This document shows, one piece after another, positions 6,926 to 57,230 of a DNA stretch of 64,000 nucleotides (within the stretch, counting starts at the first letter, position 1; each line of letters begins with the position of its first letter). The DNA is from Erythrobacter tepidarius (GTDB lineage Bacteria; Pseudomonadota; Alphaproteobacteria; Sphingomonadales; Sphingomonadaceae): the NCBI RefSeq assembly GCF_002155695.1, contig NZ_MUYJ01000007.1:124001-188000 (forward strand), read 5' to 3'. The notes under the pieces were generated by a model that ran no database searches, was not told the origin of the DNA, and worked only from the letters and a program-made list of their open reading frames with translations. Made by a program: the position numbers and the translations under genes.

Positions 6926-7037
6926 GCGATTTCCTAACCGCGGCGCGGGCTCTATCAATTGAGGAATGACGCTTGCCCATCCTGCCGTTAGTGATGCTCT
7001 GATAAGGCGCGGCGCGAGGCGCGGGATTTCTGGTTCT

Positions 7038-7063
7038 GGACAGTGTCTCATGTGTCTCCAACA
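7038..7063 (+). repeat. 26-bp shared upstream element, copy A
   Basis: Identical over 26 nt to the reverse complement of 44810-44835, and still similar for ~12 nt further upstream (TTCTGGTTCTGG here, TTCTGTTTCAGG there). The core holds two GTGTCTC heptamers 9 nt apart. It sits 21 nt upstream of the amidohydrolase ATG. Probably a shared operator or promoter element, or the start of a short upstream reading frame (ATG at 7050, stop at 7086-7088 overlapping the gene start). Confidence 0.7.
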
Positions 7064-19656: not shown

Positions 19657-22600
19657 CTAATGAAAGTCGCGTGATTTCGGGATGATCCGGACATCGCGCG
19701 GATGCCCTGCTAGCCCGCGCTCAGGCATCGGACGATTGACCTCGTCGGCGCGGGCGAGCGGGGCGTGGAGGAGGTCGTCGGACAAGGCGTGGAGCGCGGG
19801 GGTGGCGTCGGTCAGGTGCGCGGCGATGACATGGATCACCTCGTCATCATACTCGACCCGTCCGCGCACCTCGATCAGCCGCGCGCCCATCACCACCTTG
19901 CGCTGCTTCTCCTTGAGATCGGGCCAGACCACGAGGTTGATGACGCCGGTCTCGTCCTCGAGCGTGATGAAGGTCACCCCCTTGGCACTGCCGGGCCGCT
20001 GTCGGATCAGCACCAGGCCTGCGACCTGCACCATGGCCCTGAACTTGCGGCTGCGCAGATCGGCCGCGCGCACGAAGCCGCGCGCGGCAAGGCCAGGGCG
20101 CAGGAAAGCCATGGGGTGCGCCTTCAGGCTGAGGCGGGTGGTCTGGTAATCGGCTACCACTTCTTCTGACAGCGGCATGGCGGGCAGACGGACGGCGGCG
20201 CGCTCCGGCCCCTCCTCACGCACCCGTGCGGCGCTAAACAGCGGGAGATCGGGCACAGCGATAAGGCTGCGCGCATCCCACAAGGCCTGCCTGCGGGTGA
20301 GACCCAGCGAGGTGAAGGCATCGGCACTGGCGAGCCGCTCGATATGGGAAGGACTGAGGCCCGCCCGCGCGCGCAGATCGACGATGTCGCGAAAGCGCCC
20401 GCCCGCCTCGCGCGCGCTCACCAGCGCGGCGGCGACGTGTTCGGGCAGGCCGTCGATCTGGCGTAGGCCAAGACGCAGGGCCAGCGGTTCGCTCTCGCCC
20501 TCCAGAGTGCAGTCCCACCCGCTCGCATTCACATCCACCGGCAGCACCCTCACCCCATGCTCGCGGGCGTCGCGCACGATCTGCGCCGGGGCGTAGAAGC
20601 CCATCGGCTGCGAATTGAGCAGCGCGCAGGCGAAGGCTGCCGGGTAATGGCACTTGAGCCAGCTCGACACATAGACCAGCTGCGCGAAACTGGCGGCATG
20701 GCTTTCGGGGAAGCCATATTCACCGAATCCCCTGATCTGGTTGAAGCACCTTTGCGCGAAATCCCGATCATAGCCGCGCGCAACCATGCGTTCGACCATC
20801 ATGTCCTGCAATTCATCGACCATCCCGCGGCTGCGGAAGGTTGCCATCGCCTTGCGCAGGCGATTGGCTTCGAGGCTCGAAAATTTCGCCGCATCCAGCG
20901 CGATCTTCATCGCCTGTTCCTGAAAGATCGGCACGCCCAGGGTGCGCCCGAGGATGCTGGTGAGCTCATCCGGCGGGCCGTGTTCGGGCGCGGGCGCGGG
21001 GATCTGCACCGGCTCGGCCCCGCGGCGGCGCTTGAGGTAGGGGTGCACCATGTCGCCCTGAATGGGGCCGGGGCGCACGATCGCGACCTGAATGACGAGA
21101 TCGTAGAATTCCCGCGGACGCAGGCGCGGCAGCATGTTCATCTGCGCGCGGCTTTCAACCTGGAACACGCCGAGCGAGTCGCCCTTGCGCAGCATGGCGT
21201 AGGTTTCGGGATCCTCGCGCGGGACGGTGGCGAGGCTCAAGCGGCGGCCATGATGATCGGCCAGCAGATCGAGGCATTTGCGGATGCAGGTCAGCATGCC
21301 GAGCGCCAGCACATCGACCTTGAGGATGCCGAGCGCCTCGATATCGTCCTTGTCCCACTCGATAAAGCTGCGTTCGGGCAGCGCACCATTGCCGATCGGC
21401 ACGGTTTCGGTGAGCGGCCCTTCGGTGAGGATGAAACCGCCGACATGCTGCCCCAGATGACGCGGCATTCCGATCATCTGCTCGGTCAGCTTGAGCACGC
21501 GCCGCAGGTGCGGGTCGGTGATGTCGAGTCCCGTCTCGGCGACATGCTTCTCGGAAATCTCGCGCCCCCAACCACCCCACACGGTGCGCGCCAGGGCGCC
21601 GGTAACGTCCTCGCTGAGACCCATCGCCTTGCCCACCTCGCGGATCGCCATGCGCGGGCGGTAGTGGATCACCGTGGCGCACAACCCCGCGCGGTGACGG
21701 CCATATTTGCGGTAGATATACTGGATCACCTCCTCGCGCCGTTCGTGCTCGAAATCGACGTCGATATCGGGCGGCTCCTTGCGCTCTTCGGAGATGAAAC
21801 GGTCGAACAATAGCTGGTGCTTGGCCGGATCGACCGAAGTGATGCCAAGGACGTAGCACACCGCCGAGTTCGCGGCCGAGCCTCGCCCCTGACACAGGAT
21901 CGGCGGATCGCACCCCCGCGCGAAATCGACGATGTCCTTGATGGTCAGGAAGTAGCGCGCGAGATCGAGCCTGGCGATCAGCGCGAGTTCCCGCTCCAGC
22001 GTGGCGCGCACGCCGTCTGGCACGCCATCCTGATAGCGGCGCCCTGCCCCCTTCCAGACTTCGGCCTCCAGATAGGTCTGCGGGGTCTGCCCGTCGGGGC
22101 AGATTTCCTCGGGATATTCATAGCGCAGCTCGTCGAGGCTGAAATTGCACCTGTCCGCCACGGCGCGCGCGGCGGCGATGGCGTGGGGCCAGCGGGCGAA
22201 GAGGCGCTGCATTTCCTGGGGCGACTTGAGGTGCCGCTCGGCATTGGGGTGGAGCAGATGACCGGCAGCGGCGACCGTGGTCTTGTGCCGGATCGCGGTC
22301 ATCACATCCTGCAGCGCGCGGCGTTCCGGGGCGTGGTAATGGACATCGTTGGTGGCGAGCAGGCCGAGGCGATGGGCACGCGCGAGCTCATCCAATCGCT
22401 CGATCCGTGCGATATCGTTGCCGCGGTAGAGATAGCTGGCGGCGATATGCCGCAGGGTGGGCAACAGGCAGACGAGGTGGGGGAGAAGGTCGGGGAAAGG
22501 GGCAGTGAAGTCAGCGGCACCAAAGGGGGGGGCGCTAAGGTTCTCCGCCCGCATGCCGGAGGAGCCGGGGAAAGGCGTGTCGCAAAGCTCGCGCCGCGCA

Positions 22601-23151
22601 TCGCCACCCTTGGCCCCTCCAGCACGCGGGAGAGGAACCACATTGCTCGGCACCCGAATGGTGAAGCGCGCCTCCAGATCATCCGGCGGCAGCAGGATCA
22701 GCTGCAAGCCTTCCGAATGCCGGGCGAGCAGTGCAAGGTCGATCTCGCACACCCCCTTGTCCTGCCACTCGCCGCTGAGCGTCTGCATCCGGCCAGCACT
22801 GATCAACCGGCACAAGCGGCCATAGGCGGCACGATCCTCAGGGTAAGCGAGAAAGGCGAGACCCTCCACCGTCTCGATCCGGCAGCCGATCACGGGGCGC
22901 AATTTCAGCGTCTTGGCCTCGGTGTGGATGCGCACCACGCCGGCCATCGAGTTCACATCGGCAATCCCGATCGCATCATAGCCCGCAGCATTGGCCGCCA
23001 GCACCAGATCGACCGCATCGGACGCCCCGCGCAGGAAGCTGAAACAGCTGACAAGGCCCAGCTCGACGAAAGGCGCGCGTTCGGGCGGGGCGATACCGGC
23101 CGGGTCGATATCGAGCCTGCGCTTGTCGGGGGTGAGCGGCGCGTCGGGCAC
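19657..23151 (-). CDS. dnaE2: Error-prone DNA polymerase DnaE2 (ImuC)
   Basis: 1164-residue C-family polymerase for SOS translesion synthesis with ImuA and ImuB. The PHP domain starts at FVELGLVSCFSFLRGASDAVDLV (broken here at ~29-50). The polymerase active-site region includes CQGRGSAANSAVCYVLGIT and DIDVDFEHERREEVIQYIY, with the catalytic Asp residues. Motifs FGEYGFPESHAASFA and KCHYPAAF follow, and the OB fold (~1010-1090) ends the protein. The GTG at 23151 abuts the udgX stop. A 52-residue in-frame insertion interrupts the PHP domain at ~163-214 (separate entry); without it the length is 1112. Confidence 0.95.
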   Translation of the reverse strand: MPDAPLTPDKRRLDIDPAGIAPPERAPFVELGLVSCFSFLRGASDAVDLVLAANAAGYDAIGIADVNSMAGVVRIHTEAKTLKLRPVIGCRIETVEGLAFLAYPEDRAAYGRLCRLISAGRMQTLSGEWQDKGVCEIDLALLARHSEGLQLILLPPDDLEARFTIRVPSNVVPLPRAGGAKGGDARRELCDTPFPGSSGMRAENLSAPPFGAADFTAPFPDLLPHLVCLLPTLRHIAASYLYRGNDIARIERLDELARAHRLGLLATNDVHYHAPERRALQDVMTAIRHKTTVAAAGHLLHPNAERHLKSPQEMQRLFARWPHAIAAARAVADRCNFSLDELRYEYPEEICPDGQTPQTYLEAEVWKGAGRRYQDGVPDGVRATLERELALIARLDLARYFLTIKDIVDFARGCDPPILCQGRGSAANSAVCYVLGITSVDPAKHQLLFDRFISEERKEPPDIDVDFEHERREEVIQYIYRKYGRHRAGLCATVIHYRPRMAIREVGKAMGLSEDVTGALARTVWGGWGREISEKHVAETGLDITDPHLRRVLKLTEQMIGMPRHLGQHVGGFILTEGPLTETVPIGNGALPERSFIEWDKDDIEALGILKVDVLALGMLTCIRKCLDLLADHHGRRLSLATVPREDPETYAMLRKGDSLGVFQVESRAQMNMLPRLRPREFYDLVIQVAIVRPGPIQGDMVHPYLKRRRGAEPVQIPAPAPEHGPPDELTSILGRTLGVPIFQEQAMKIALDAAKFSSLEANRLRKAMATFRSRGMVDELQDMMVERMVARGYDRDFAQRCFNQIRGFGEYGFPESHAASFAQLVYVSSWLKCHYPAAFACALLNSQPMGFYAPAQIVRDAREHGVRVLPVDVNASGWDCTLEGESEPLALRLGLRQIDGLPEHVAAALVSAREAGGRFRDIVDLRARAGLSPSHIERLASADAFTSLGLTRRQALWDARSLIAVPDLPLFSAARVREEGPERAAVRLPAMPLSEEVVADYQTTRLSLKAHPMAFLRPGLAARGFVRAADLRSRKFRAMVQVAGLVLIRQRPGSAKGVTFITLEDETGVINLVVWPDLKEKQRKVVMGARLIEVRGRVEYDDEVIHVIAAHLTDATPALHALSDDLLHAPLARADEVNRPMPERGLAGHPRDVRIIPKSRDFH
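22505..22666 (-). repeat. 156-bp in-frame insertion within dnaE2
   Basis: GTGAAG occurs at 22505-22510 and again at 22661-22666, exactly 156 nt apart. Removing one copy plus the intervening DNA restores the coding join EARFT-APFPDLL, which reads like the uninterrupted family. The inserted 52 codons (IRVPSNVV ... GAADFT) contain no stop and are Gly/Pro/Ala/Arg-rich. On the plus strand two hairpins are visible: CTCCG...CGGAG (22543-22561) and CCTCC...GGGAGAGG (22616-22635). It looks like a small palindromic dispersed element. Confidence 0.72.
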
Positions 23152-44809: not shown

Positions 44810-44835
44810 TGTTGGAGACACATGAGACACTGTCC
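44810..44835 (-). repeat. 26-bp shared upstream element, copy B
   Basis: Exact reverse complement of 7038-7063, so it has the same orientation relative to its gene. On the minus strand it begins a six-codon frame, ATG at 44823 to a TGA ending at 44803 (MCLQQG), just as copy A starts MCLQ. Control element of the M20 hydrolase gene. Confidence 0.7.
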
Positions 44836-44962
44836 TGAAACAGAAAAGATCCGCCCGCGGCCGCTTTCGTCCACGAACGCAGATTGGTCATCAAGCGGCG
44901 CATTGCGATCATTGTCCGATCTTGCCATGGCGCACGACCGGTAGGAAACGCGCCCGCCCCTT

Positions 44963-52995: not shown

Positions 52996-53008
52996 TGTCA
53001 TCTCCTGA

Positions 53009-53116
53009 CCCCTCCGCCTGCGGGAGAGCAGCGAGACTTGCCAGCTTGCTGACCAGTCGCAGCGGGGTGGGAGATGATGCATCCGCCCACCCCGGCCTCT
53101 TCGCGATGCGGGAGAG
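53009..53116 (-). repeat. Hairpin-rich repeat-like segment between gap and pgk
   Basis: Three nested dyads: CTCC-GCCTGC-GGGAG (53012-53026), GGGGTGGG (53064-53071) with CCCACCCC (53086-53093), and CCTCT...AGAGG (53095-53116). The outer hairpins resemble those of the dnaE2 insertion at 22505. It may be a dispersed palindromic element and/or an mRNA-processing site between gap and pgk. Confidence 0.5.
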
Positions 53117-53125
53117 GTGAAGGGT

Positions 53126-57039: not shown

Positions 57040-57084
57040 GAAAGACATGGCGGGACTGCCCGGCACGAGCCGATCGAATATCCC

Positions 57085-57230
57085 TGAGGCTATAAACAAT
57101 CCCATGGGAGCTGTCCCTGTCCGGGCTCGCTGGTTCGTCCGGAGGGCTCGGGCACACGGCGCCCACCTGACGTTGCAGGCGTCAGAGGATTTCTAGCGCA
57201 ACCGACCCATGGTGGTTCCGCCACGTTTTC
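57085..57230 (+). ncRNA. ssrS: 6S RNA (approximate ends)
   Basis: Intergenic RNA between zapA and the 5-formyl-THF cyclo-ligase gene, the usual ssrS position. The terminal stem can form from CCCATGGG (57101-57108) with CCCATGG near 57207-57213, enclosing a long GC-rich stem with an internal open region. A GTGG-CCAC hairpin with TTTTC ends it. 6S RNA mimics an open promoter and binds sigma-70 RNA polymerase. Ends are estimates. Together with the hairpin tract at 57296 it accounts for the 342-nt gap. Confidence 0.7.

Follow-up and report, generated by a model that had tools for sequence, protein, structure and literature searches.

The window analyzed here, a stretch of 64,000 nucleotides from Erythrobacter tepidarius (contig NZ_MUYJ01000007.1), carries dnaE2, the gene for the error-prone DNA polymerase III alpha of the SOS mutasome, and within it an in-frame palindromic insert that matches a family of sequences dispersed over related genomes (family D). 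The dnaE2 product was recognized in Pfam through DNA_pol3_alpha (E value 1.1e-81), the finger domain (8e-54), HHH_6 (5.3e-23), PHP (1.9e-11) and OB (4.1e-10). An initial annotation of the window had already proposed a stop-free, in-frame palindromic insert in DnaE2, and this was borne out by a profile match, by the open reading frame (ORF) and by the existence of shorter relatives. Below, L and G numbers denote loci and genomes, G000 being the genome from which the window comes.

Because blastn was confident of the self-match alone, a profile search was used. The family D profile, made from nine dispersed pairs from other genomes, none of them in dnaE2, was run by nhmmer on the 64-kb window and matched dnaE2 with an E value of 3.1e-10 (aligned 22545-22634, envelope 22543-22635, model positions 3-92 of 93). 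The profile also matched the opposite strand of the same place (E value 0.0022), as expected because the element is palindromic, and all remaining matches in the window had E values of at least 0.39. Both ends of the element are codon boundaries, position 22635 being the first base of codon 173 and position 22543 the last base of codon 203, and the 31 codons between them are in frame and free of stops. Compared to the dispersed pair of L162, the window copy showed 68 identities over 93 positions without a gap; its arm spacing of 71 equals that of L162, L164, L166 and L184 and falls within the 68-85 seen across the nine profile pairs. Folded as RNA, the minus strand of 22505-22666 reached -84.9 kcal/mol, better than 200 of 200 dinucleotide shuffles (z -4.23). 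At gathering scores, Rfam matched no family at the dnaE2 site, a distant-mode search of a plasmid collection with positions 22400-22760 returned no match, and the element was absent from the families listed by a general repeat scan of the window (20 of 27 direct, 25 of 34 inverted).

Next, the arm pattern was matched against G000, allowing up to three mismatches. This yielded 18 strand matches at 10 places (8 forward, 10 reverse), compared to 2 forward and 2 reverse matches for the reversed-pattern control. Two of the 10 places are the dnaE2 arms themselves, and one (C11) belongs to a decayed pair (L252). The initial annotation had likened the hairpins of the insert to intergenic DNA of the window, a resemblance for which one decayed D-like sequence, in the spacer between gap and pgk, offers weak support (Table 1).

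The extent of the element had to be revised. Placed by the initial annotation at 22505-22666, it is confined by the D profile to 22543-22635. The GTGAAG copies that bounded the former interval do exist, at 22505 and 22661, and fall on host F-T codons (RFTI and DFTAPF), but they are not the sign of a target-site duplication. An in-frame pair of identical 6-mers spaced by 90-210 occurred in 1568 of 1578 random 300-nt stretches of dnaE2 outside the site, and a pair at exactly 156 in 101 of them; because nearly all stretches hold a comparable pair, we attribute this one to chance, and the GTGAAG target-site duplication was dropped. Likewise, removing 156 nt would not recreate the arrangement of element-free relatives, because these keep ~20 linker residues between the two points. 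The addition of 52 residues without a stop was correct as to frame and stops, but the element itself accounts for 31.

Table 1 Features of the dnaE2 locus and related sequence in the window.
Feature	Position	Strand	Basis
Family D palindromic element, two imperfect palindromes in inverted order; 93 nt encoding residues 173-203 of DnaE2 (PLPRAGGAKGGDARRELCDTPFPGSSGMRAE)	22543..22635	minus	nhmmer profile
First palindromic arm (CCTCTCCCGCGTGCTGGAGGGG)	22614..22635	minus	arm pattern, 1 mismatch, both strands
Second palindromic arm (CTCCTCCGGCATGCGGGCGGAG)	22543..22564	minus	arm pattern, 3 mismatches, both strands
Interval of the initial annotation: element plus host linker, bounded by two chance GTGAAG 6-mers	22505..22666	minus	
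dnaE2, error-prone DNA polymerase III alpha, SOS mutasome	19657..23151	minus	1164-residue ORF, no interruption
Second insertion loop of DnaE2, between WDCTLE and ALRLGLRQ; short linker, empty here	20482..20499	minus	comparison with relatives
Probable decayed D-like element filling the gap-pgk spacer	53006..53120 (ends approximate)	unassigned	profile match 53116-53014, E value 0.39; likeness and fold by eye

Upstream of dnaE2 and co-directional with it, Pfam domains identified a DUF4130-uracil-DNA-glycosylase fusion, a radical SAM protein and an IMS-domain (ImuB-like) Y-family polymerase, surroundings that are a usual setting for an SOS mutasome. Elsewhere in the window, Rfam placed a 6S RNA at 57050-57222 (52.1 bits). 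A 37-nt inverted repeat, 95% complementary, joins 7027-7063 and 44810-44846, which lie 37.7 kb apart.

Palindrome families at two loops of DnaE2

We evaluated this DnaE2 loop (site 1) in a sample of 61 genomes from the genus, 57 of which had a DnaE2 match. Fifty loci were fetched (L031-L080), those of G008, G009, G014, G023, G032, G048 and G056 were not, and G014 has a dnaE2 copy of family B that is left uncounted. Site 1 could be read in 48 of the 50 loci, L053 and L069 falling outside the alignment. The loop stretch is 95 residues long in the window and mostly 64-68 in relatives without a recognized element, i.e., 27-31 residues shorter: 64 in L056, L057, L060, L061 and L062, 66 in L059 and L071, 67 in L067 and 68 in L050. 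These first five relatives are therefore shorter by exactly 31 residues, or 93 nt. A comparison with orthologues had been suggested by the initial annotation, and in the alignment the added residues are not common to them; with the related, though decayed, sequence found elsewhere in G000, neither refuting condition of that annotation came true. Instead, the orthologues of the genus hold differing sequences in this loop, and their DNA holds hairpin pairs.

To classify these sequences, profiles of families A, B, C and D, made from 23, 2, 27 and 9 sequences, all from copies outside dnaE2, were run on 223 loop sequences from two DnaE2 sites at an E value threshold of 1e-3. Matches were obtained for 23 of the 223, all at site 1 (one of them, L082, duplicates L048), and for 0 of 1115 codon-shuffled loops. 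Within the genus sample, 18 of 48 genes matched at site 1 (A 7, B 6, C 3, D 2). Because the B profile consists of two sequences, and a single CGTC-type family may comprise both A and B as variants, the safe count for the genus is three unrelated families (A/B, C and D). Novosphingobium (L089, L107) and another Sphingomonadaceae genome (L084) likewise have family D at this loop, and L054 is D-like by eye, below the profile threshold. Other inserts were compared by eye: a family E occupies site 1 in L049, with short matches chiefly to other dnaE2 loci, and the site 1 insert of L085 matches three other dispersed loci, that of L129 just 26-31 nt and that of L133 nothing. Family E and the inserts of L079, L080, L085, L129 and L133 have no profile of their own. 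The linker is wholly absent at site 1 from outgroup DnaE2 (Parasphingopyxis L091 and several Rhodobacterales rows) and from genus rows L076-L078 near the base of the tree. Overall, because the same loop holds quite different repeats in relatives, site 1 looks like a recurrent landing place for palindromes.

The PHP domain of the window protein was modeled with AlphaFold (alignment A1, 66 sequences), with a mean predicted local distance difference test (pLDDT) score of 90.8 and with E. coli Pol III alpha (2hnh) as the top solved match. In this model the element corresponds to residues 150-180, between the strands at 139-144 and 190-195, with block means of 65, 60 and 48. Given this low-confidence stretch within a well-predicted domain, the insert most likely falls within a PHP-domain loop that is disordered. 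Because the added residues would belong to such a loop, the polymerase most likely still works.

At the second loop (site 2), the stretch measures 79-92 residues in 4 of the 33 genus genes read there and 24-45 in the other 29, and long stretches also occur in Novosphingobium L093, Caulobacteraceae L125 and L140, and Reyranella L128. The RNA hairpins at site 2 of L063, L064, L079 and L080 had z scores of -3.1 to -10.0 against codon shuffles. Among the loci compared, the inserts of L063 and L064 match one another and, partly, family E, that of L079 has no match and that of L080 matches just its duplicate L083. Novosphingobium L107 holds a D-like copy at site 2; across 70 nt, it is 90% identical to the dispersed copies of L183 and L206. 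The A-D profiles gave zero matches at this site.

Across the genus sample, family D (query, the insert of L040) had matches at E values of at most 1e-3 in 34 of the 61 genomes, 13 of them with at least 10, copies per genome being lower bounds because the initial pass scores ~15 candidates per genome; among the matches listed, inverted neighbours are frequent. When dnaE2 copies and single matches are included, A was found in 38 and B in 39 genomes at the same threshold, and C in 33 at an E value of at most 1e-6. Aligned dispersed copies of D have the ends CCCCTCCCGC and, apart from neighbouring variation in L184, GCGGGAGGGG. The ends of family D have neither a CGTC nor a GTAG tag; inspected by eye, L039 and L063 have B and C copies that start with CGTC and end with GACG.

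Two further loci stood out. In L109, a Rhizobium metagenome-assembled genome, site 1 of DnaE2 holds a short tandem-like peptide (DRTLPGRTLPDCTLPDDTT), a different type of expansion. In L036 (G022), the ORF that holds DnaE2 spans 1644-1674 residues without a stop and is much longer than those of its relatives.

In-frame palindromes in other proteins and in DnaE1

In-frame insertion was surveyed at 99 dispersed loci outside dnaE2. An ORF extended at least 40 residues beyond the element on each side at 38 of these and at least 60 residues at 27; 25 of the latter were scanned against Pfam, and 9 had a domain. L208 and L274 represent the same place, and L186 (RrnaAD) was excluded from the count because its element precedes the domain. 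The 7 distinct in-frame places within Pfam-supported genes affect the glycyl-tRNA synthetase beta subunit GlyS (L173, L268), MetH (L177), a class I tRNA synthetase (L208/L274), CysRS (L245, directly past the catalytic domain) and sulfite/nitrite reductase (L267, L272). In-frame palindromic inserts are not special to DnaE2.

The replicative polymerase DnaE1 was used as a control. No match to the A-D profiles lay within DnaE1 in 38 genus ORFs (6 partial), even at an E value of at most 0.01; the single weak match (E value 0.0033) fell at the extreme start of one open frame. Six DnaE1 genes (L329-L334) have ~32 additional residues near position 318. In G013 (L333) and G028 (L331), this insert is an intact palindrome of a further family, J (E values 2e-21 and 4.4e-20 with a profile of 23 dispersed copies), which had matches in 44 of 61 genomes at an E value of at most 1e-5. 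In G039, G055, G050 and G033, the peptide can be aligned and the palindrome is not detectable by the J profile (best E value 8.3, in G033). The insert at residue 318 looks like a candidate domestication of a palindrome. In G000, families A, B and C have one match each (E values 1.1e-5, 6.1e-4 and 7.0e-15), and families E and J none.

Origin of the DnaE2 insert

Several known systems resemble family D. Rickettsia palindromic elements (RPEs) insert in frame at places that a protein tolerates, and D shares this habit of in-frame palindromic insertion that is absent from orthologues; the likeness noted here is one of habit, and RPEs come from a genus other than that of the window. The initial description of a Rickettsia-type element in an SOS polymerase therefore holds in kind (palindromic, dispersed, in frame, stop-free, absent from many orthologues), but its boundaries, the direct repeat as a target-site duplication and the 52-residue excision are mistaken or unproven. 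Repetitive extragenic palindromic (REP) sequences mobilised by REP-associated tyrosine transposases (RAYTs) form bacterial interspersed mosaic elements (BIMEs), in which inverted REP pairs are dispersed over the genome, as D pairs are; unlike D in the window genome, these are accompanied by a Y1 transposase, the partner of GTAG-type REPs.

Within the accessible text of PMC3733652, REPs are reported sometimes inside genes, with DnaE2 listed as one of the REP-tagged proteins and 'E. lithoralis' and S. alaskensis given as cases in which tRNA synthetases are hosts. In Xanthomonas recB, according to this text, differing REPs occupy roughly one position; the positions of REPs differ among further genes belonging to that functional category. 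Its GTAG- and CGTC-tagged REPs are, like D, short dispersed palindromes, often head-to-head dimers and sometimes intragenic, but they carry an end tag, which D does not. CGTC families are described there as mostly alphaproteobacterial and without an associated transposase, as in the window genome. Relative to what is accessible of that work, the addition made here is one DnaE2 loop in which profiles support three to four families, and another loop with more. Literature searches on such repeats listed no other publication that seemed to deal with this DnaE2 loop. The insert is best classed among REP/RPE-like in-frame insertions, as one whose family is untagged.

We consider it highly probable that the sequence at 22543-22635 represents family D, a REP-like dimer of palindromes that is dispersed over genomes, and that this copy inserted in frame and survives in a tolerant disordered loop of DnaE2. 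A dimer would have entered dnaE2, its 93 nt and frame giving 31 extra residues and no stop, and this copy would now be decaying. In relatives, the same loop would have taken other palindromic families (A/B, C and, by eye, E), and the second loop more. Such palindromes, presumably mobile and non-autonomous, would be copied to many places by some activity, or formerly by a since-lost transposase. Most intragenic insertions would be lost, and those in length-tolerant loops with a stop-free frame would survive, probably as neutral additions.

A number of observations weigh against this explanation. In its own genome, a blastn search with 157 nt found, besides itself, nothing below an E value of 0.0097; the search for genomic copies suggested by the initial annotation did reveal related sequence elsewhere in G000, but these other D-related copies are few and decayed. 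Y1 transposases (PF01797, E value of at most 1e-5) number 0 in G000 and occur in 4 of the 61 genus genomes, and a Y1 transposase was rejected as the mobiliser, there being none in the own genome. Neither a clean empty site nor a target-site duplication, a trait of miniature inverted-repeat transposable elements (MITEs), was found, and the true junctions of the element are blurred by decay. Folded as DNA, the plus strand of 22505-22666 had a z of -1.43, with 14 of 200 shuffles equally good. Against codon shuffles, the hairpins at site 1 were modest in many carriers (z -2.3 for L031, -1.4 for L032, -1.3 for L039, -0.6 for L040, -1.8 for L063 and 0.1 for L129), with z from 0.3 to 1.6 for the element-free L056, L059 and L062. 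The window copy is itself degenerate, and the hairpin of its whole loop had a z of just -2.3 against codon shuffles. These last two points, together with a loop whose length and sequence differ also among rows lacking a recognized element (L050-L052, L055, L086, L088), could also be read as an ordinary, fast-evolving host linker that is by chance GC-rich and self-complementary, with no mobile element involved. Such a linker would not explain why a profile of dispersed copies outside dnaE2 matches the site end to end, why 18 of 48 genus loops match compared to none of the shuffled ones, or why five relatives are shorter by a step of 31 residues, and we judge it very unlikely.

How the different families came to share one loop is a separate question. 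Whole alleles may have been exchanged between species by homologous recombination after few founding insertions, in place of repeated insertion. On a quick DnaE2 protein tree (65 rows, loop excluded), in which 31 of 62 inner branches were open under the Shimodaira-Hasegawa approximate likelihood ratio test (SH-aLRT), the family labels required 14 changes, or 11 if A and B are counted as one. A single 24-row clade (support 98) held the A, B and C carriers along with two of the D carriers, and within it different families stood as sisters, e.g., L031 (D) next to L032 (A; 87), L037 (C) next to L046 (B; 86) and L040 (D) next to L063 (C; 94). Exchange would also fit the downstream FGP(T/S)E flank common to the D carriers L040, L053 and L054, though L054 is a distant row, and the MERT that follows the element in several A carriers and 2 of 3 C carriers. 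The sister supports are SH-aLRT values of a quick tree, however, and the approximately unbiased (AU) test did not reject a single clade for the three C rows (p-AU 0.42) or for the two D rows L031 and L040 (p-AU 0.585, the constrained tree being even better), results that also count against repeated insertion. The gene tree was therefore dropped as proof of many independent insertions, being too weak, and exchange of alleles is a live alternative, which we regard as quite possible though short of probable. The downstream flanks differ in the Novosphingobium D copies, and unrelated families require separate founding events at the same loop, whatever the tree says.

Another explanation is that selection maintains the inserts, with DnaE2 tuned by the additional loop or by the mRNA hairpin, through protein contacts or expression. 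Two DnaE2 loops are used across several genera, the minus-strand RNA hairpin has the z of -4.23 given above, and, according to the accessible text of PMC3733652, a role in DNA synthesis and repair is shared by many of the proteins that carry REPs. Yet the inserts are unrelated in sequence, length and family, many relatives have none, copies decay, and other housekeeping proteins carry inserts as well, all of which makes this explanation unlikely. True membership of D in a Rickettsia RPE family, finally, would agree with the shared habit (a palindrome, in frame, of a dispersed family). It is extremely improbable given that the ends of D lack CGTC, the tag of the families matching RPE-4 and RPE-6 in the accessible text of PMC3733652.

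Taken together, insertion and survival of a family D dimer in a tolerant loop may be one case of something broader, namely that disordered loops of bacterial C-family polymerases are recurrent landing places that turn junk palindromes into protein. Two DnaE2 loops with unrelated families, and family J at residue 318 of DnaE1, apparently kept as a peptide by four other genomes after loss of the palindrome, point in this direction; we offer the generalization tentatively and think it rather doubtful at present. The slot is more interesting than the window copy itself. Made up of a single protein with two loops, a number of unrelated repeat families and numerous relatives that lack an element, it forms a comparative system rather than an anecdote, in which one can ask how often palindromes become coding, which frames survive, how fast copies decay and whether any gained a function. 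The possibly domesticated insert of DnaE1 puts this question in its sharpest form.

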